From IMG/VR virus record IMGVR_UViG_3300046167_000399, positions 1-33,402 of that record: a DNA stretch of 33,402 nucleotides; one strand, written 5' to 3'. A program made the position numbers and the translations under genes. The DNA comes from a virus. Within the stretch, counting starts at the first letter, position 1, and every line of letters starts with the position of its first letter. The notes beneath the pieces are model-generated. The model did no database searches and was not told the origin of the DNA. It was given only the letters and a program-made list of their open reading frames with translations. Positions 13,372 through 27,416 of this stretch are shown in pieces.

Positions 13372-13658
13372 CTTTTATATGCTTTCTTTATCATCGCTGC
13401 TTCTAGTTCATTCTTTTCTTTCTCAAACGTTAGGAAGTTGAGGCACTTGAAAATTGGAAGGTTGGTGATTTCGTCAAAGTTGAGAATATTTCCTCCAGCG
13501 AGTGCATAGATTGATTGATACCAGCCCCACTTTGAGCCAAAGCCTGCTTGAGCTGATAAGTCTGTTCCTCCGTCAGATTTTTCTGTATATAACTCGGTAT
13601 AGCTCTCAACAACTCCTTCCCTAAATCGTAAAAAAAAACCATAGCACTCATTACCACA
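13368..13658 (-). CDS. Tail assembly chaperone C-terminal extension reached by -1 frameshift
   Basis: This -1 frame has no stop from 13658 to the TGA at 13368-13370. Its downstream part is strongly coding-like: FGSKWGWYQSIYALAGG, then NILNFDEITNLPIFKCLNF, LTFEKEKNELEAAMIKKAYK. I recognise this GWYxSIYxLAGGxxxxFD pattern from tail assembly chaperone extensions (G-T-like products). It has no credible start of its own, so it must be translated as a fusion from the zero frame. Its stop overlaps the next gene's ATG as ATGA, which argues that this frame is used. Whether the slip occurs at the T9 run or nearer 13545 is open. Confidence 0.75.
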   Translation of the reverse strand, partial: CGNECYGFFLRFREGVVESYTELYTEKSDGGTDLSAQAGFGSKWGWYQSIYALAGGNILNFDEITNLPIFKCLNFLTFEKEKNELEAAMIKKAYKR

Positions 13659-14134
13659 TCAAGAGGCATTTCCCTCATAAGGTTTGACACCTCTTCGCTT
13701 GGGTCATAGGGAGCTACCGTATATTTTTCTTTCTGCTTGAAGTTAACAGGTCGATACAACGCTGCCATAGCTTTATGCATCCTACCCCAGTCTGATATAT
13801 TATCTTCAACGTCTATATATGCGCCAAGAGAAATATTCTCTAACTGCGGTTCAAATCCCATATCTACGCCAAGTAAGTCAAACCTGCGTATTAGATTAGG
13901 CTTTTCTTCAAATGCCTTGTTGATTATGCTTAATACCTTGTCAGCATCTTTAGCTGGAATGTTAAGCACATCCTTTAGTGACACGTTGCAGAATATCTCA
14001 ATGGTCTTTAACGCCAAGAATTCATCAGCACCTTCTCCGTTCTCTTCAATGACCTTCATATAACGCTGGTACTGCCCAAGTGTTATGTTTGATAAGTCAG
14101 TTGGAACTGATAATTCTAATTCTATGGTTTTCAT
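13430..14134 (-). CDS. Tail assembly chaperone, zero-frame product
   Basis: A 234-residue largely helical protein starting MKTIELELSVPTDLSNITLG. The segment LGQYQRYMKVIEENGE, VMSAMVFFYDLGKELLRAIP and GAGINQSMHSLEEIF are the landmarks of a family found before the tape measure in Bacteroidetes phages. Such chaperones coat the tape measure during tail assembly and are made in a short form and a longer frameshifted form. Here the zero frame stops at 13430 while the -1 frame continues to 13368. The upstream region 14135-14342 is noncoding and repeat-bearing. Confidence 0.75.
   Translation of the reverse strand: MKTIELELSVPTDLSNITLGQYQRYMKVIEENGEGADEFLALKTIEIFCNVSLKDVLNIPAKDADKVLSIINKAFEEKPNLIRRFDLLGVDMGFEPQLENISLGAYIDVEDNISDWGRMHKAMAALYRPVNFKQKEKYTVAPYDPSEEVSNLMREMPLDVVMSAMVFFYDLGKELLRAIPSYIQKNLTEEQTYQLKQALAQSGAGINQSMHSLEEIFSTLTKSPTFQFSSASTS
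13630..13638 (-). other. Candidate -1 ribosomal slippery site (T9)
   Basis: In the zero frame the codons read GTT TTT TTT TAC, so a U UUU UUU heptamer is correctly phased for a -1 slip. It lies inside the region where the -1 frame is open (13658-13368). The frame translated directly after it looks less coding-like than the region after about 13560, so an alternative slip point further downstream is possible. Confidence 0.5.
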
Positions 14135-14200
14135 ATCTAAATAATAATTGGTTGTTTAAGTGTACTTATTGATTATGCACCTGCCTGTATGGCACATATA

Positions 14201-14340
14201 TATAACATATATCTTAAAGAGTAATAACATGTATCTTATCTTAATATGCATTTTAAGAAGGTTATGTTTTATAAAGAGTATTAACATGATGCACTCTATA
14301 TAAATAATATAACATGTATTATATAATAACATGAGTAACC
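14201..14340. repeat. AT-rich cluster of TAACATG-type repeats before the tail chaperone
   Basis: The gene-free stretch 14135-14342 contains degenerate repeats around ATAACATGTAT: near 14201, 14222, 14280, 14309 and 14325. Two are almost identical to units of the array at 26151-26265 (TATAACATGTAT and ATAACATGAGTA). No tRNA or convincing ORF was seen here. A shared DNA-binding protein acting at both places is an inference. Confidence 0.65.
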
Positions 14341-14342
14341 AG

Positions 14343-14606
14343 TTATGATTCATAACCTACTTTTTCTAAATGGTTGTCGTAGTATTTTATGTAGATGCGC
14401 CACAAAGCATCAGTCAATTCTTCTTTTTTGTACGTTTGAGGCGATTTAATGCGTTTTAAGCCATTATCTATTTCAATATGGTACATATCTCCACTTGGTA
14501 AGGGATATGCTCTTAAATAGCTTCTAAATGCCCAAGAGATAGCTTTACGAGCTTTGTCTGTGTCTTGTAAATGCAATGGAATGGGTTTTATCTTACGTTT
14601 TGGCAT
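14343..14606 (-). CDS. Small basic protein at head of the virion operon (87 aa)
   Basis: I place the start at ATG 14606 (MPKRKIKPIPLHLQDTDKAR) rather than 14672, because the 22 extra residues are encoded by noncoding-style TATTRAATTC repeats. The protein is basic, with KARKAISWAFRSYLRAYPLP and LTDALWRIYIKYYDNHLEKV, and no signal peptide or membrane span. It is the first gene after the promoter at 14767-14798. A DNA- or RNA-binding regulatory role is possible given the charge, but no family was recognised. Confidence 0.55.
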   Translation of the reverse strand: MPKRKIKPIPLHLQDTDKARKAISWAFRSYLRAYPLPSGDMYHIEIDNGLKRIKSPQTYKKEELTDALWRIYIKYYDNHLEKVGYES

Positions 14607-14608
14607 AC

Positions 14609-14687
14609 TATTAAATTCATAGCTAATATACGAAAAGGGTATTGAATTCACAAGTAAGGGTATTAAATTCATACCTATTGAATTGAA
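14609..14687. repeat. Four copies of a TATTRAATTCAY motif in an operon leader
   Basis: Four copies, at 14609-14620, 14640-14651, 14661-14672 and 14676-14687, of TATTAAATTCAT / TATTGAATTCAC-type sequence, two preceded by GGG. They lie in the leader between the 14.78 kb promoter and the ATG at 14606. The same motif recurs at 18129-18230 and 27940-27970. Confidence 0.75.
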
Positions 14688-15148: not shown

Positions 15149-15587
15149 TTTAATTATCCGCAAATTATTTTCAAATATTTTCTTTGTTCATGATTAATTT
15201 ATTTTACTTGTGTATAGATATTTTCTTGCTTGTTTTATTGTTTCAAAATACTTCACTTCATATAATGATGCAACCTTATAAACGTTGTGTATAAACGTTA
15301 ACGTTTTGTTGTTTCTTGTTTGGGCGTATCCACAACATAAAGCGTATTTTGTTAATTCGTTTCTTTGTTTTAATTATCCGCAAATTATTTTCAAATATTT
15401 CTTTGTTCATGATTAATTTATTTTACTTGTGTATAGATATTTTCTTGCTTGTTTTATTGTTTCAAAATACTTCACTTCATATAATGATGCAACCTTATAA
15501 ACGTTGTGTATAAACGTTAACGTTTTGTTGTTTCTTGTTTGGGCGTATCCACAACATAAAGCGTATTTTGTTAATTCGTTTCTTTGT
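15149..15587. repeat. 220-bp near-perfect tandem duplication
   Basis: Copy 1 at 15149-15368 and copy 2 at 15369-15587 are identical by inspection except for one T in a short homopolymer (TTTT versus TTT before CTTTG). The unit covers the 3' part of the 64-residue gene plus its downstream spacer, so copy 1 leaves a start-less gene fragment. Each copy also holds a TTATACACA (minus strand), a match to the DnaA-box consensus. It may be a recent recombination product or an assembly artefact. Confidence 0.9.
15194..15373 (-). pseudogene. Duplicated 3' fragment of the 64-residue gene
   Basis: The left copy of the tandem duplication carries an open frame of 59 codons with the same ending as the intact gene (NELTKYALCCGYAQTRN to KQARKYLYTSKIN). 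It has no ATG/GTG/TTG at its head because the duplication joins it to spacer sequence after a TAA. It is probably untranslated. Confidence 0.6.
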
Positions 15588-16593: not shown

Positions 16594-16689
16594 TTATTGT
16601 GTTAATATAATGCGAAGGGCTAAATATAGCGGAACAATGTATAAAAGTAGGTGTACCGCTTTTTTTGTTAGTTTGTCAAGTGTTTTCAT
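16594..16689 (-). CDS. Membrane micro-protein (31 aa)
   Basis: MKTLDKLTKKAVHLLLYIVP then LYLALRIILTQ: a basic N-terminus and a single hydrophobic helix (residues about 11-29). It lies four bases after the preceding 47-residue membrane gene and just before the 273-residue gene. Length alone cannot prove coding, but the hydrophobic segment and tight packing support it. Possible membrane-acting host-modulation peptide (inference). Confidence 0.45.
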   Translation of the reverse strand: MKTLDKLTKKAVHLLLYIVPLYLALRIILTQ

Positions 16690-17504: not shown

Positions 17505-17560
17505 TATGCAATGATTATCCTTGTATGCAATGATTATCCTTGCGTTAATGATTATCCTTG
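17505..17560. repeat. Three tandem copies of a 18-19 bp repeat
   Basis: Units at 17505-17523 and 17524-17542 are identical (TATGCAATGATTATCCTTG) and the third, 17543-17560, differs at its head (CGTTAATGATTATCCTTG). The third unit encodes the end of the 72-residue gene, including its stop at 17552-17554, so the array begins inside a coding 3' end and runs into spacer. Confidence 0.85.
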
Positions 17561-17770
17561 AATGTTATCTACCTTATGTTTCAATTGCAGAATCAAATCA
17601 TCATCATCTTTTTTCTTTTGCTTCATGGTTACTTCAATAATACTCGGAAGCCAATCGAACAATGCCTGTGGGCGTATTGTTACTATGTTAAGGTTATTAG
17701 ATAAGCAAATGCCATCTTCATTCGACCATAGTGTTATTATCTCGTCAATATATATTTCTTCGTTATTCAT
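17552..17770 (-). CDS. Small acidic protein (72 aa), unknown function
   Basis: MNNEEIYIDEIITLWSNEDG, a middle with LFDWLPSIIEVTMKQKKKDD, and a final helix LILQLKHKVDNIQG. No Cys pairs or membrane span. The last codons lie in the tandem repeat, so the C-terminus may have been set by repeat expansion. It follows the terminator-like hairpin at 17787-17804 without an obvious own promoter. Unknown function. Confidence 0.55.
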   Translation of the reverse strand: MNNEEIYIDEIITLWSNEDGICLSNNLNIVTIRPQALFDWLPSIIEVTMKQKKKDDDDLILQLKHKVDNIQG

Positions 17771-18050: not shown

Positions 18051-18075
18051 TATAATGATATTTAAAGGCAAATAT

Positions 18076-18468
18076 ATGTATAAATGGAATAAGCAGGGGG
18101 ATATTGAAGCAATCCCACAAGAACAGGGTATTGAATTGCCACAGGGGGGTATTGAATTCACAGAGGAAGAAACCCCTATTAAATTCACAAGGAAACAAAC
18201 TCCAATCTTTACAGGGGTATTGAATTACTTTCCCGATGCAATTCGAGAAGTTGCAAAGTGTTCTTACGCTGGACAACAACAACACAATCCAGATAAACCT
18301 CTAGCGTGGGATAGAAGCAAGTCAGGAGACGAATTAGATGCGCTCTCTCGGCACTTACTTGAAGCAGGTACAGTTGATACCGATGGCATTAGACACTCCG
18401 CTAAAGTAGCTTGGAGGGCGCTGGCTAACTTACAAAAGGAAATAGAGAATGACAATGAAGCAGTTTAA
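18076..18468 (+). CDS. dATP/dGTP diphosphohydrolase-like protein (DUF5664-like)
   Basis: I choose ATG 18076 (MYKWNKQGDIEAIPQ) over 18055: AAAGG lies 8-13 bases upstream, and 18055 would sit only 5 bases past the TATCTTTG box. The product is 130 residues. The C-terminal two thirds match the small all-alpha domain known in phages as dATP/dGTP diphosphohydrolase N-terminal or DUF5664: FPDAIREVAKCSYAG, GQQQHNPDKPLAWDRSKSG, ELDALSRHLLEAG, and RHSAKVAWRALANLQKE. These are helical nucleotide-pyrophosphohydrolase-like proteins thought to act on purine dNTPs; substrate here is unknown. The N-terminal 50 residues are encoded by four TATTRAATTC motif copies and give a repetitive (G/P)I(E/K)F pattern. 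It lies on the plus strand in an otherwise minus-strand genome. Confidence 0.75.
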   Translation: MYKWNKQGDIEAIPQEQGIELPQGGIEFTEEETPIKFTRKQTPIFTGVLNYFPDAIREVAKCSYAGQQQHNPDKPLAWDRSKSGDELDALSRHLLEAGTVDTDGIRHSAKVAWRALANLQKEIENDNEAV

Positions 18469-18580
18469 TCAATACTTACGCACCTGTTTAGATAATGGGT
18501 GTGATGAGGTTGTGGTTAAGTTTGACAGGCAGGGTATAGTTTCTGTTGAGCCTATTATCGAAGCACGTACATCCCTTTAG
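18449..18580 (+). CDS. Small plus-strand protein (43 aa)
   Basis: MTMKQFNQYLRTCLDNGCDE, a strand-rich middle (VVVKFDRQGIVSVEPII) and a short tail. It overlaps the end of the diphosphohydrolase-like gene by 20 bases and converges on the large terminase gene, overlapping its 3' end by 26 bases. Start could be ATG 18449 or 18455. Coupling to the upstream gene is the main support; function unknown. Confidence 0.55.
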   Translation: MTMKQFNQYLRTCLDNGCDEVVVKFDRQGIVSVEPIIEARTSL

Positions 18581-19773
18581 GTACAGTACGTTCAAGGGCG
18601 TATTGAATTGCGTAGCGGCTTCCGTCGATGCCATGATTCCAAGAGTCTCTTGGTATGCTACCCTTTAACTTCCAAGCATAATTGTTAAACTCTCGTATTA
18701 AATTCACAGAGTCCTTATCGATTATTATATTGTAGTCCTGCATAAGAGCGATGCCTGATAAGATGCTACCTTTCTTTTTTATAGTAGGCGTAATGTTTTT
18801 AAGTCCTTTAGTCTTTAACTCCGATATAAGTCGAGGCTCACTATTGTCGCACACAATCAGATTATTCCCTGCATACCTTCTACACATCTCAAATATATTA
18901 GAAGTAGATAGTCCAGCCTTGTAGAAGTGTTCTTTTATCCAGATAGTCTTTCGTAGCTTATCTACCGCAATTTCAGTTAGGGTTGAGGGGTCTACCGAGA
19001 ATCCGAAATCAAGTCCAAATATCGTATCATACTCGTTATTGAAATCGCCAATCTCCCAATGAGTAAACACAACTCCCTCTGCTTTCTCAAGCCACCCTCC
19101 TAATATCTGGTGCTTGTATTTCTCTGGTCTACGCTGGCGCATCACCTCCACTTGCTCTACAAAAGATGGAGATAAGTGTTGCTTGTTATCAAGGTAGGTT
19201 GTGTGTATATAGCTGACGTTCTCTTTAACGCCATTGTAACCGTCTGTAATGCCTCTATTCTCAAAAAACCTCTCGTATATCCAATGCTGTTTAGTTGTGG
19301 GGTTTAGAATGAGGATACAGCGATTCTGCTTTCCAGTAGCACGAACAGAGTAGTCTATCTTTTCAAACGATTCCTCGTCTGTAAGTTCCTCTGCTTCATC
19401 CAAGACAAATGTCGTAACGCCTTGAATAGACTTGAGCTTGGCGGTCTGGTCTCCACTCGCAGTCTTAATACCACTAAACAGAATGCTGCTTCCTGTTAGG
19501 TTATTTATAATCTCATTCTTTGTAACAGGTAAAGTTCTCTGCTATACCCATAAGCTCAAGCTTCTCCAAGAACTCTGGTATAATAGACATAGATGCCGAA
19601 GTCATTGTATATCGAGTAAACAGTATGCGATGCCCTGTCTCGTATGTTAGAAGCACCAAGAATGTATTTACGCCAAAAGACTTACCACTTCCCCTACCAC
19701 CTGTAATTACAAAGTACCTACTTGGGTCTCTGAACAGAGGATTGTACTTGGGGTTAAGATTTACTTTCCTCAT
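18555..19773 (-). CDS. terL: Terminase large subunit (one frameshift)
   Basis: About 405 residues from ATG 19773 after repair of an extra T near 19535-19540 (ACC T GTT). Packaging motor: Walker A GGRGSGKS (residues 25-32), a Walker B-like FVLDEAEELTDEE, an NPTTKQHW coupling-type motif, and a C-terminal RNase H-like nuclease with LDFGFSVDP, VCDNSEPRLISELK. The literal frames end at 19513 and resume at 19403; the bridging frame reads VTKNEIINNLTGSSILFSG, which is fully coding. It overlaps the small subunit gene by 20 bases. It meets the plus-strand 43-residue gene tail to tail with no terminator between. Confidence 0.9.
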
Positions 19774-20403: not shown

Positions 20404-20880
20404 TTAGTATATTGAACCACTTATTCCTTCAGAGGCGTAATAAACCTTTGTCTGTTGGTTTCTCGGTTGTATGTTATTAGATATAGCTTGCTTCAAATCA
20501 TTATTCAGCTTCTCAATATCCTTCTTTAAATCAGACACTTCTAGTTTAAGTCTCATGTTCTCTTCCTCAAAATCAATCTCTGGCTCTCCTGCAAGACCGC
20601 AAAATTCATTTCGTATTGAATCAAACTTCTTCCTGAACAACTTGTCTTGGGCGTAGTCTATTTCAAATTGATTTATCTGATGCAATACAGTAGCATGATT
20701 CTGTTTTAAGGGTAATGTCTGTCCTATTGAGTGAAGAGACGTTTTCTTGTAAAACTCCCTAAACAATTTGTAATACATTCTTCTGGCAAAAATAACCTCT
20801 CTCTTTCTGGTTTTAACACCCATATTAACACCAGTCTTTTCCTCTACTAATCTTTTAAGATATTCTATCTCCAATTCCAT
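20404..20880 (-). CDS. DnaA domain IV-like DNA-binding protein with coiled-coil tail
   Basis: A 158-residue protein. Residues about 20-75 (VKTRKREVIFARRMYYKLFR ... SLHSIGQTLPLKQNHATVLH) follow the DnaA C-terminal domain: basic first helix, then SIG...-NHATVLH aligned with the DnaA box-binding signature (typically GRDHTTVLHA). The DnaA-type AAA+ ATPase domain is absent. The C-terminal half is a predicted coiled coil (NMRLKLEVSDLKKDIEKLNN). It could bind phage origin DNA, regulate terminase genes just downstream, or compete with host DnaA (inference). Confidence 0.75.
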   Translation of the reverse strand: MELEIEYLKRLVEEKTGVNMGVKTRKREVIFARRMYYKLFREFYKKTSLHSIGQTLPLKQNHATVLHQINQFEIDYAQDKLFRKKFDSIRNEFCGLAGEPEIDFEEENMRLKLEVSDLKKDIEKLNNDLKQAISNNIQPRNQQTKVYYASEGISGSIY

Positions 20881-21055: not shown

Positions 21056-21170
21056 CTTTCTTATCTTCTGGCAATTTTTGAATTACAGCTTGAAGCATGG
21101 CGTACATCCTTGTAACCGCCTTCTCAAGCATCTCTATTCTATGTTGCTGTGTTAGTTTCTTTTTTCTCAA
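21036..21170 (-). CDS. Small helical protein (44 aa), TTG start
   Basis: Frame from TTG 21170, whose TTGA overlaps the exonuclease stop: LRKKKLTQQHRIEMLEKAVT then RMYAMLQAVIQKLPEDKKDD. It is a basic helical peptide. The alternative start is the internal ATG (MLEKAV...). The four-base overlap is the same coupling signature used elsewhere in this operon, with TTG in place of ATG, which is the reason for choosing this start. Confidence 0.5.
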   Translation of the reverse strand: MRKKKLTQQHRIEMLEKAVTRMYAMLQAVIQKLPEDKKDDISTS

Positions 21171-21952
21171 AGTATTCCTTTTATAATATATTCGTCTATA
21201 TTTTTACCGCCTTCAGAAAACCATTCTCTGTAAGTGTTTATTGCGCTAACAACTAATTCTTCGCCTTGAAAGTAGAACTCTTCGCTAACATCGTATACTG
21301 CAATATCTTTAGTGTCCTTACATATACACAAGAACTTAAAGTCTTGGTATTCGACACCGAATAAATTACAGTAAATGAAAACCTGACTGGCGTAACCATA
21401 CTTTCTAGCATTGTAAGGGAAGCTACCCTCCGCAAGACCTGTTGTTGTCTTTAGGTCTACGATTCCATTCGCACCAATAGCATCTGCTTTAGCCCTAAAA
21501 GGAATACCGTTAATATTTCCGATAGCTGGCTTCTCGTAATCAAGACCCTTTATTAGCATTTCAGCATCATAATTACTATATATAGCATCAGACATTCTCA
21601 TAGTATCTTCATACTCTTTACGCAAGAACGTCATTGGATTGTCGGCAAATGCTTCCTTATATATCTTGGTGTTTCTTGTACTAGCATCTACCCAATTAAG
21701 GTGTCCAAACTTCTCGGGTTCAAACACAGCTAGGTGTAACAGCCATCCAGCAGTCATAGCGCTTGTTCGCTTATTAGCAAACCTTAAAGACTTTGCGTAT
21801 GCTTTAGGTGATTTGTTAAGTAACTTCACGCTACTGCTACTCAATGCGTTCTTTCCCAAGTATTCATAGTAGAACTCATCATTGTCCATTTGCTTTAAGA
21901 TAGAGTCTTTATCCCAAAACTTTCCGTCTAGTGTAACTATCTGATTACTCAT
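21167..21952 (-). CDS. RecE-like PD-(D/E)XK exonuclease
   Basis: A 261-residue nuclease of the putative exodeoxyribonuclease VIII type. Signatures: GWLLHLAVFEPE (residues 69-80), a PD-(D/E)XK core FRAKADAIGANGIVDLKTT (Asp157, Asp166, Lys168), and the helix motif YGYASQVFIY (185-194). Such enzymes resect double-stranded ends to give 3' single strands for an annealing protein. The partner here is probably the ERF protein at 26847-27416, although the two genes are about 5 kb apart. ATG at 21952 overlaps the preceding gene by 8 bases. Confidence 0.85.
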   Translation of the reverse strand: MSNQIVTLDGKFWDKDSILKQMDNDEFYYEYLGKNALSSSSVKLLNKSPKAYAKSLRFANKRTSAMTAGWLLHLAVFEPEKFGHLNWVDASTRNTKIYKEAFADNPMTFLRKEYEDTMRMSDAIYSNYDAEMLIKGLDYEKPAIGNINGIPFRAKADAIGANGIVDLKTTTGLAEGSFPYNARKYGYASQVFIYCNLFGVEYQDFKFLCICKDTKDIAVYDVSEEFYFQGEELVVSAINTYREWFSEGGKNIDEYIIKGIL

Positions 21953-24111: not shown

Positions 24112-24388
24112 AATCTATTAAAATTAAAATTTGTTCAATCGAATTACAAACAGCATAATTACCATTCCACTTCTCTTGAAATTGCACCTCATCGGGTGTT
24201 AGCTTCTGTTGACTCTTTGTTTTATTTCCGTCTTTCAACTCAATCATATAGTTATTATTTCTATAACCTAGTATTAAGTCTGGCGCACCTCTACCCAGCT
24301 GATGGGTATGTAAGACTGAAACGCCTAAATCTCTTAATTGTTTTACTACTTCTTTTTGGTTTGCATCTACTCTTGCTTTTTTTCGCAT
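24071..24388 (-). CDS. VRR-NUC domain nuclease
   Basis: A 105-residue protein with the compact VRR-NUC fold: GAPDLILGYRNNNYMIELKDG (Asp37, Glu50-x-Lys52), KSQQKLTPDEVQFQEKWNG and a final helix with CNSIEQILILIDYV. Standalone VRR-NUC proteins act as Holliday-junction resolvase-like or structure-specific nucleases. It overlaps the primase-helicase gene by 22 bases, consistent with a role in processing replication or recombination intermediates. Confidence 0.85.
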   Translation of the reverse strand: MRKKARVDANQKEVVKQLRDLGVSVLHTHQLGRGAPDLILGYRNNNYMIELKDGNKTKSQQKLTPDEVQFQEKWNGNYAVCNSIEQILILIDYVDEGRVVKKTRK

Positions 24389-26112
24389 CTTTGAACATCT
24401 ATATCTTTAAATGGTGTGTATCCATCAAAGTAATACCTTTGTTCTCTTATGTTAAAATTGATGCCCTCTACGTCTTGAGGAATACCAACTAGCTTTTGTT
24501 TCTTAATCTTTTGTGAACCAAAGATAACACTTGTATCCGAGAAATCCAAAGCACGATTAGGTCTCCATACAAACATCACATTATCTGCCTTGTCTGAAAA
24601 CGTACCGCCACCCTTAATTCTATTCACATCAGGTTTATAATACCTGCCACTTTCATCTTTTTGTGGTGTAACTTGATGCGCCACTAAATTTACAGATATA
24701 TGGTTCTCAATAGCGAATCTCTTTAACTCACTCATGAAACGACTAATATACAAATCTTCACGCTCACCCTTGTACATCTTATGTTGTACCGTATTGTATG
24801 GGTCAATGATTAAAGAACGAATACCCTTTGTCTTAACAAGAAACTTTGCTCTATCAAATATAGAATCCAAGTTAAAGTTCTTTCTAGGGTATATTAGGAA
24901 AAAGTGTTTCTTTACAAAGTTAATCGCCTCATAATACTCATCCTTTGTCATCTGATTATTCTTGTAGTATGGGTCAGCACTCTTGCCAATGTACATCTCT
25001 ACAATGTCATTAAAGAAGTCTTTCATCGGCATATTCTCTGGACTAAATACACCAAACTTCCAACCATCGTGAAACGCCTTAACAGTAGCAAGCTGGTTCA
25101 GAAGCAAAGACTTTCCTTCATTCTGGTAGCCTGTCCAGATATTAACCTCTCCCATTCTCCAAGTCCAAGCCTTATCTATGTGAGGAATGTATGTACTTGA
25201 ACCTCTTTCTTGACCGTTCTCAAAACCATCCATCATAGAGTCAACAACATCATCAACGTCAAAGATACCCTCTACTTTGGGTGCTTCAGCCGTTTTAAGG
25301 CGATTACGGAGACTTTCTACACCTTCCTTAACCAAAACCTCATTGGCATCCTTAAACGGTCTTAAATCGACTATTTTACACTTCTCTGCGCCAAAACGTC
25401 TAATTAACTCTTGTTGCAAGTTTCTACCATTGTCATCATTATCAGTAGCAATATAGATAGTAGATGCCTCATCAAAAACATCATAACAGGTTGTTAGACA
25501 CTCAAGTTTCTTGTCAATACTCTTGTCTCCAACATTGGGCGCACCCATATTAACAGAGGTGTGGTAAGGAATGCCAATCACTTCCCAACTCAAAGAATCA
25601 ATCTCTCCCTCGCATATAACAATCTTTGGTTGACCTTTAACACCATCGTAGTTGTATATGATTGGTTTTGCATCTTTAGCTTGAGCAAAGAATTTACCGT
25701 CTAAACCTCGTTTCTTGTAGTTTACAAGTTCGCCATCTTTTATATAAGGAAAGAAAATGTTTCTGTCATCAGAAGATGATACAATCTTATTCCTTTCAAT
25801 AACCTCATCGGTTATACCTCTTCCGTTAAGGAATTTGCGCCCCCTATCAGAGATTCTCTTCATATTTGTTTTAGATGGCTTTGTGTATTGTTTCATTGGT
25901 TTCGTGTATTGTTGCATTTCTTTTGCTTTTTTTACTGTTCCTTTGTATCCGCATTTGTGGCAATTATATACGCCCATCAATATGTTGATAGACAGGCAAG
26001 TGTCTTTCCAGTTCTCCTTACCTAAAGACTTGCATTTAGGGCATTTAACCTTTTGTTCTTCACTATTTCCCTTCGGTTCTACGCCTAAATCTAAAAATTC
26101 TTGTACAAACAT
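24367..26112 (-). CDS. Bifunctional primase-helicase (Twinkle/gp4-like)
   Basis: 581 residues. An N-terminal zinc ribbon (Cys24, 27, 51, 54), a TOPRIM domain with IVICEGEIDSLSW (Glu168/Glu170) and ATDNDDNGR (about 222-230), then a DnaB-like helicase: Walker A GYQNEGKS (328-335), Walker B LIIDPYN (434-440), and AHQVTPQK (478-485). This is the T7 gp4 layout and would both prime and unwind at the phage fork. Uninterrupted frame. It is preceded by the 17-bp repeat array at 26151-26265 and followed by nuclease and sigma genes in one operon. Confidence 0.9.
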   Translation of the reverse strand: MFVQEFLDLGVEPKGNSEEQKVKCPKCKSLGKENWKDTCLSINILMGVYNCHKCGYKGTVKKAKEMQQYTKPMKQYTKPSKTNMKRISDRGRKFLNGRGITDEVIERNKIVSSSDDRNIFFPYIKDGELVNYKKRGLDGKFFAQAKDAKPIIYNYDGVKGQPKIVICEGEIDSLSWEVIGIPYHTSVNMGAPNVGDKSIDKKLECLTTCYDVFDEASTIYIATDNDDNGRNLQQELIRRFGAEKCKIVDLRPFKDANEVLVKEGVESLRNRLKTAEAPKVEGIFDVDDVVDSMMDGFENGQERGSSTYIPHIDKAWTWRMGEVNIWTGYQNEGKSLLLNQLATVKAFHDGWKFGVFSPENMPMKDFFNDIVEMYIGKSADPYYKNNQMTKDEYYEAINFVKKHFFLIYPRKNFNLDSIFDRAKFLVKTKGIRSLIIDPYNTVQHKMYKGEREDLYISRFMSELKRFAIENHISVNLVAHQVTPQKDESGRYYKPDVNRIKGGGTFSDKADNVMFVWRPNRALDFSDTSVIFGSQKIKKQKLVGIPQDVEGINFNIREQRYYFDGYTPFKDIDVQRCEKKQE

Positions 26113-26150
26113 TTGGTAGTCTCGTTTTTATTTTGTTTTTTTTACAATTA

Positions 26151-26265
26151 TATAACATGTTACGTATTATAACATGTATCGTATTATAACATGAGTATTA
26201 AATATTTATAATATGTATCATATTATAATTCTTTATATAACATGTATCGTTTCGTAACATGTTAA
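26151..26265. repeat. 17-bp iteron-like array, candidate replication origin
   Basis: Units resembling TATAACATGTATCGTAT start at 26151, 26168, 26185 (degenerate), 26207, 26224 (degenerate), 26236 and 26253 (partial). The first two abut exactly with 17-base period. The ACATGT core is palindromic. The array fills the gap between the winged-helix gene and the primase-helicase gene in very AT-rich DNA, the usual setting of an iteron origin or an operator array. Related units occur at 14201-14340. Confidence 0.75.
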
Positions 26266-26540
26266 TGCTTGAATTGAGGGTTAACATATATTCTACGTTG
26301 CTTCCCATCAAAACCTATACTTTTCGTTTCACGTCTAATACAGGCGCTCTCTTCAAGTCTATTTAAGATTCTATACATTGTCCTGTCTTTAACAGACATC
26401 GCCTCGCACAGATGCTTATTAGTCGCAAAGCAATACCCTTTGTCCGATGATAAGGACTTAATGTAAGAGAATACCGCTTTTTCTACAAATGAAAGTTTAC
26501 TTAAACCCTCCATATCTACTTTTATGTAATTAGTTTTCAT
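26262..26540 (-). CDS. Winged-helix DNA-binding protein (92 aa)
   Basis: MKTNYIKVDMEGLSKLSFVE, helices then YCFATNKHLCEAMSVKDRTM followed by YRILNRLEESACIRRETKS and a beta wing (GKQRRIYVNPQF). This is the layout of replication-initiator-type winged helix (HTH_36-like) proteins. It directly precedes the iteron array, so it is the best candidate for the protein that binds those repeats, acting as initiator or autoregulator (inference). It follows the terminator at 26545-26573. Confidence 0.75.
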   Translation of the reverse strand: MKTNYIKVDMEGLSKLSFVEKAVFSYIKSLSSDKGYCFATNKHLCEAMSVKDRTMYRILNRLEESACIRRETKSIGFDGKQRRIYVNPQFKH

Positions 26541-26846: not shown

Positions 26847-27416
26847 TTATGTATTTAATAATTGTTCTACTTTTTTATTTACTTTGTACTTCTTTCTGAT
26901 ATCATTCATTGTAAAGCCATCTTTTAAGGCTTCTTTTGCCCTGTCAAACGCTTCACCAGATTCAGGCAACCACTTTTTATCATCTATAATCTCTTTTACC
27001 TTACTGGTATTAAGATTTGTGGAATTGTGATTGTTAGTCGAATCGGCATCCTTTGTATCATCTATTAAGAATAAACCATTTAGGGCGTACTTTCTAGCGT
27101 AAGATGAACTACTACCAAAGCATTGTGCCACATCCATACCCTTTCTATTAGGGTCGATACCTGCTTGTGCTGAAACCTCAATAACACCTTCAATGTCCTT
27201 GAATTGTGCTGTTGATTCAACAAAAGAAAGTCCATTGTCCAACTCTATAACCTTGTCAGAAATAGTTAAGACAACTTTGTGTTCTACTAATAGAGGCTTT
27301 ACTGCTTCCAGTATATCCTCACAATTACGGTACTTATACTTACCGAAACTATTATATTGATTTTTTGGTGCTTTCAGTCTCCCCTGAATGTCCACCAGTT
27401 TTTCATATATATTCAT
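26847..27416 (-). CDS. erf: ERF-family single-strand annealing protein
   Basis: 189 residues with the ERF core: NQYNSFGKYKYRNCEDILEA, LTISDKVIELDNGLSFVEST, and the hallmark GSSSSYARKYALNGLFLIDD. The C-terminal third is a linker and a small helical DNA-binding-like tail. ERF proteins anneal single strands during recombination, usually with a 5'-3' exonuclease; here the RecE-like gene at 21167-21952 is the probable partner. First gene after the promoter at 27421-27451. Confidence 0.9.
   Translation of the reverse strand: MNIYEKLVDIQGRLKAPKNQYNSFGKYKYRNCEDILEAVKPLLVEHKVVLTISDKVIELDNGLSFVESTAQFKDIEGVIEVSAQAGIDPNRKGMDVAQCFGSSSSYARKYALNGLFLIDDTKDADSTNNHNSTNLNTSKVKEIIDDKKWLPESGEAFDRAKEALKDGFTMNDIRKKYKVNKKVEQLLNT

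Follow-up and report, generated by a model that had tools for sequence, protein, structure and literature searches.

A 33.4-kb stretch of DNA from a marine bacterial virus (an IMG/VR record, hereafter the window), in which nearly all genes lie on the minus strand, carries two arrays of palindromic sites ~12 kb apart: array 1 (26148..26265), between the genes for a small winged-helix (wHTH) protein and a primase-helicase, and array 2 (14203..14336), in front of the presumed structural genes. We favor the reading, with a probability of roughly 0.6, that array 1 is an origin bound by dimers of the wHTH protein and that array 2 is a second binding region with a role like that of its counterpart in phage SPP1. 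An initial annotation of this DNA had proposed an origin at array 1 and had missed array 2 at 14203-14336; its interpretation is supported in part, and the presence of a second, co-diverging array means that a system of paired sites has to be considered in place of a single origin.

Array 1 was called at 26148-26265 by TRF as well as by a repeat finder, and the G+C content of this region is 19%. It consists of six ACATGT-type palindromes of the unit TAACATGTTA (five strong, one weak), which form two triplets lying ~29 bp apart and separated by A and T only. One triplet comprises site 6 (26151..26164, TATAACATGTTACG, core 26155-26160), site 5 (26168..26181, TATAACATGTATCG, core 26172-26177) and site 4 (26185..26198, TATAACATGAGTAT, core 26189-26194). 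The other comprises the weak site 3 (26216..26225, TAATATGATA on the minus strand, core 26218-26223, with another possible register at 26209-26218 and core start 26211), site 2 (26238..26247, ATACATGTTA on the minus strand, core 26240-26245) and site 1 (26255..26264, core 26257-26262), a perfect palindrome that overlaps the stop codon of the wHTH gene. The core-to-core spacings are 17, 17, 29, 22 and 17, and therefore a strict 17-bp period holds only within the triplets. The motif TAACATG occurs seven times within 112 bp of array 1, both strands considered, versus 12 times in the whole 33.4 kb. Array 1 contains 24 repeated 9-mer pairs, a number reached by none of 2000 dinucleotide shuffles of local AT-rich DNA (mean 1.2, maximum 13). 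No genome-wide enrichment of the consensus was detectable in the window when two mismatches were allowed; the signal is the clustering. Thus, the repeat array claimed upstream of the primase-helicase gene is real, and the dyad-symmetric, palindromic cores agree with the dimeric binder that had been suggested. The estimate of five to seven units can be narrowed to six, while the assigned 17-bp period is retained within the triplets and lost across the array.

The gap of array 1 harbors a candidate DNA unwinding element (26199..26238), which represents the least stable 40 bp of the 33.4-kb window in a nearest-neighbour energy scan of 40-bp stretches, a computed measure only; the third least stable 40 bp coincides with array 2. 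The AT-rich context described initially is thereby confirmed as a stretch of extremely low stability inside array 1. Array 1 also holds the contig's least stable 40 bp in 15 of the 20 contigs that have this array, and array 2 takes ranks 1-7 in 19/19 contigs scored. Since promoters also show low stability, the data support an unwinding element without proving it. The GC skew, which had been suggested as a check, runs monotonically across the window with no turn at 26.2 kb or at array 2 of the kind that bidirectional replication could leave; it is uninformative here because nearly all genes lie on one strand.

The gene overlapping site 1 (26262..26540, minus strand) encodes a 92-aa protein with a winged helix of the HTH_36 type (E 3.6e-11), which is likely the initiator that binds the array. 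Immediately downstream of array 1 follows the gene for a TOPRIM primase - DnaB-like helicase (24367..26112, minus strand; phrog_239, E 7.8e-84), so both neighbours are as the initial annotation had named them. The PHROG matches of the wHTH protein are replication initiation proteins. In its AlphaFold model (pLDDT 87.7), the best four PDB matches are DNA-binding domains of initiator/Rep proteins (4pt7, two chains of 4pql, and 5kbj), with E-values of 5.6e-4 to 8.2e-4, a TM-score of about 0.6 and 14-17% identity, and replisome organizers and protein O are among the matches to viral folds. The closest solved folds are thus replication initiators, in line with the initiator-like character that had been ascribed to the gene. 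Many MarR-type regulators follow close behind in the fold matches, and hence the fold alone is not decisive. No match to the RepA_N family was obtained at the cut-off; Pfam assigns HTH_36 and only the fold is similar. A C-terminal domain for helicase interaction or loading is absent, as the protein stops after the wing at 92 aa. Array 1 combines hallmarks of iteron-type phage origins of the lambda/RepA style: a short repeat present several times in a non-coding/initiator-gene context, an AT-rich element beside them that is easily melted according to its computed stability, and an adjacent or overlapping initiator-type gene, here the wHTH gene reaching into site 1 and encoding the putative binder. 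This anatomy supports well that array 1 is likely a phage replication origin.

A BLAST search of the array 1 region against the window returned one other match, at 14305-14337 (88% over 33 bp), which lies in array 2. Here, the array 1 unit is present in weaker copies with cores at 14205, 14227, 14284, 14312 and 14329, plus weaker ones in between; TAACATG copies start at 14225, 14282, 14310 and 14327, with weaker ones at 14203 and in between. Apart from a lone TAACATG at 16687, the unit was found nowhere else in the window. Array 2 is located between an ORF (14343-14612) and gene 13430..14134 (minus strand; phrog_32199), with which the presumed structural (late) operon begins, and lies upstream of this operon. 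Its repeat content was reached by 1/2000 local shuffles for 7-mers and by 19/2000 for 9-mers. Taken alone array 2 is modest, and its conservation across relatives makes it solid. Between array 2 and gene 13430-14134, a conserved dyad resembling TGCCA-N3-TGGCA occupies positions 14182-14194; divergent lineages such as G011 and G015 also carry the same dyad at array 1, where the wHTH gene has its 3' end. At 15149-15587, a 219-bp unit is present in two tandem copies with 99% identity, reflecting either a recent duplication or an assembly effect.

The relatives of the window are environmental virus contigs. Among phages with a name, those closest to it have Flavobacteriia as hosts; the primase-helicase points to Tenacibaculum phage JQ (51%) and the portal to the Nonlabens phages P12024S/L (42%). 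Scanning bacterial genomes for prophages or hosts yielded a single MAG contig, whose label was no more precise than Bacteroidetes. The primase-helicase, used as a query, retrieved 80 loci. Where these include upstream sequence, the primase-helicase gene is again preceded by repeats or an AT-rich gap and, before that, by the wHTH gene; ~75 related contigs possess array 1 or a repeat-bearing gap in this slot. The unit TAACATGTTA is common to the window, G001, G003 and G004, whereas the unit is of the TAATATG type in G002, TACACTTAGTGTA in G019 and L028, and GTACAATGTAC in G008, G009 and G018. In L028 and L030, which have an unrelated unit, the first sites of array 1 reach into the wHTH gene at its 3' end. 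In the two lineages with divergent units, TACACTTAGTGTA and GTACAATGTAC, the triplet-gap-triplet layout is retained at both arrays. The spacings are 19,19,30,19 at array 1 and 19,16,29,19,19 at array 2 in G019, 19,17,30,19 and 17,29,17,19 in G008, and 19,17,30,19 and 19,16,30,17,19 in G018, the array 1 values omitting the last site, which was trimmed off. The layout of array 2 is looser in the lineage of the window. Conservation in the relatives examined, another check suggested at the outset, applies to the slot and, where units diverge, to the layout, while the unit itself changes.

Array 2 recurs as well: 55 loci were retrieved with gene 13430-14134 as the query, and array 2 is present upstream in the majority of them. 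Every 150-bp stretch of 20 longer contigs and the window was scored with 8-mers taken from array 1 only. In 17 of the 18 contigs having both arrays, array 2 was the best other place, and the distance to the downstream homologue of gene 13430-14134 was at most 300 bp; G015 gave a tie. The motif underlying these scores is a genuine sequence motif in nine contigs and mostly TATATA, which is weaker evidence, in the rest. Mean similarity between array 1 and array 2 was 0.158 within a genome and 0.059 +/- 0.013 between genomes (0/20000 permutations), although permutation overstates independence as the genomes are related; with one genome per motif group the test gave 1/100000. It fails in G007, G015 and G016, and in the divergent lineages G007 and G010-G016 array 1 is nearly pure AT with a low-complexity repeat signal. 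Judged from these comparisons, descent of a single locus from a common ancestor does not account for the resemblance of array 1 and array 2 across loci. Both arrays change sequence together in the relatives, which suggests that one protein binds both. The residues DRTxYR of the wHTH recognition helix are almost invariant though the array unit changes strongly between lineages; consequently, specificity would sit elsewhere in the wHTH protein, or another protein binds. Protein identity correlates with motif similarity for all conserved proteins (0.76 for wHTH, 0.62-0.89 for other phage proteins), so that wHTH is not singled out and the correlation does not decide the binder.

The main rival is transcriptional control of two operons, with both arrays serving as operators through which a phage regulator, wHTH or another protein, would switch the primase-helicase and structural operons together. 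The second array 12 kb away keeps this reading alive: each array immediately precedes a gene on the same strand that is able to start an operon, a dimeric regulator would suit palindromic sites, and regulators of the MarR/PadR/SlyA type are frequent among the sequence and fold matches of the wHTH protein. Nevertheless, we regard it as unlikely, given that the other operons have no sites in front, that six sites with a fixed AT gap of 29-30 bp and the lowest stability of the genome exceed what operators need, and that replication initiators make up both the top four fold matches and the PHROG matches of wHTH. A natural control, consisting of one closely related phage pair only, points in the same direction. 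Nonlabens phage P12024S has structural genes in common with the window, and a search for homologues of wHTH and the primase-helicase in this phage returned none; gene 13430-14134, located downstream of array 2 in the window, does have a homologue in P12024S, where it stands immediately next to the terminase gene and no array intervenes.

The arrays might also be of the origin type and be bound by a phage protein other than wHTH, in particular by the product of the gene at 20404-20880, in which a part resembling domain IV of DnaA (Pfam E 3.7e-7, just under the cut-off) is combined with a coiled coil. This protein was found in all contigs examined, and the wHTH recognition helix does not track the motif. 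However, in G001, where the array unit is unchanged, the DnaA-IV-like protein is down to 37-40% identity, which disfavours it as the binder; its correlation with the motif (0.62) is the lowest of ten proteins tested, and its gene is ~5 kb or more away from either array, whereas the wHTH gene touches array 1. We hence consider such a binder quite improbable. Separately, a 19-bp repeat, TATGCAATGATTATCCTTG, occurs in three copies at 17505-17564 and in several relatives too; it includes TTATCC, the first part of the DnaA box, and could be a site of the DnaA-IV-like protein.

Packaging, partition or structural signals (pac/cos or parS-like) are a very improbable explanation, since no ParA/ParB was present among the window proteins scanned and the distance to the terminase is >4 kb for array 2 and 6 kb for array 1, even though array 2 is on the terminase side of the genome and paired palindromic arrays can serve partition. 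In the window, the large terminase is split into two ORFs (18555-19403 and 19513-19773), a single gene in P12024S, which may reflect a frameshift, an intervening sequence or a sequencing error. Close by, a gene on the plus strand (18055-18468), running against the other genes, encodes a protein with a dATP/dGTP diphosphohydrolase N-terminal domain (Pfam E 5.8e-9).

The origin reading finds a close parallel in phage SPP1, whose gp38 (G38P) binds two regions 12-13 kb apart: oriL, which lies within gene 38 itself, and oriR, which belongs to the late region. Both are composed of direct repeats and an AT-rich DUE; at oriR, gp38 was proposed to stall the fork and thereby cause recombination-dependent concatemer synthesis (PMC6316719, PMC3485210). 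Likewise, the window has two regions of repeats plus AT-rich DNA ~12-13 kb apart, one at the initiator gene and the other, array 2, presenting the same repeats in the distant late region. It also encodes an ERF single-strand annealing protein (26847..27416, minus strand) and its partner, an Exonuclease VIII-like (DUF3799) protein (21167..21952, minus strand), both assigned by Pfam/PHROG and relevant to the SPP1-like model only. In contrast to SPP1, the host phylum is different, the wHTH protein stands alone with 92 aa and no recognised loader partner, a fused primase-helicase replaces gp39/gp40, and the sites are six palindromes in a triplet-gap-triplet order.

Other systems resemble array 1 in part. 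The N-terminal domain of lambda O is a winged helix. The lambda iterons are 19-bp imperfect inverted repeats that are bound by O dimers and lie beside an AT-rich region (PMC7466680). Array 1 likewise places inverted-repeat iterons beside an AT-rich region at the initiator gene, but it occupies the 3' end of the wHTH gene and the DNA beyond it rather than a mid-gene position, an O-like C-terminal domain is missing and a second array exists. Plasmid initiators of the RepA_N family recognize semi-palindromic iterons (PMC7145576), and those of pSK41 and pTZ2162 as well as PLE RepA (4pt7, 4pql, 5kbj) share the fold of the N-terminal DNA-binding domain with the wHTH protein, which differs from them by its low identity (14-17%, TM-score about 0.6), its HTH_36 assignment by Pfam and the lack of a C-terminal domain. 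In Tenacibaculum phage JQ, a phrog_270 initiator (QIG62317.1) also adjoins the 51%-identical primase-helicase; that protein is full-length, with 247 aa and a C-terminal domain, in contrast to the 92 aa here. The linker-coding part of the JQ gene contains 12-bp repeats, AAATAGAAGTAG (L200:36735-36779), as in lambda O. JQ was rejected as a candidate for a named relative sharing both arrays, because the 12-bp repeat is different and a second array was not seen.

According to our preferred origin model, each of the six palindromes of array 1 would be bound by a dimer of the 92-aa wHTH protein and the A+T-only stretch between the triplets would melt, allowing the adjoining primase-helicase to be loaded. 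The same protein would also bind array 2 in front of the structural genes, which by analogy with SPP1 oriL/oriR may function either as another origin or as a barrier to forks. A barrier could trigger the switch from theta to recombination-dependent concatemer replication, using the annealing protein and exonuclease of the phage. A protein binding both arrays would probably serve to start and steer DNA replication. A bolder version is possible, though we lean against it: a minimal two-origin system of marine Bacteroidota phages, in which a loader-less wHTH domain binds two six-site arrays 12 kb apart, whose site sequence is rewritten in concert to give each lineage a private origin code.

A search of the flavobacterial phage literature for paired arrays or iterons found nothing relevant, and few replication origins seem to have been described for uncultured marine Bacteroidota phages. 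If our reading is true, a family of ~80 contigs would have its origin, a second copy thereof and the likely initiator readable from sequence. The family would provide a natural series of site changes in which to follow the co-evolution of initiator and site and, as an independent instance of the two-origin plan of SPP1, would allow tests of why a phage maintains both origins.
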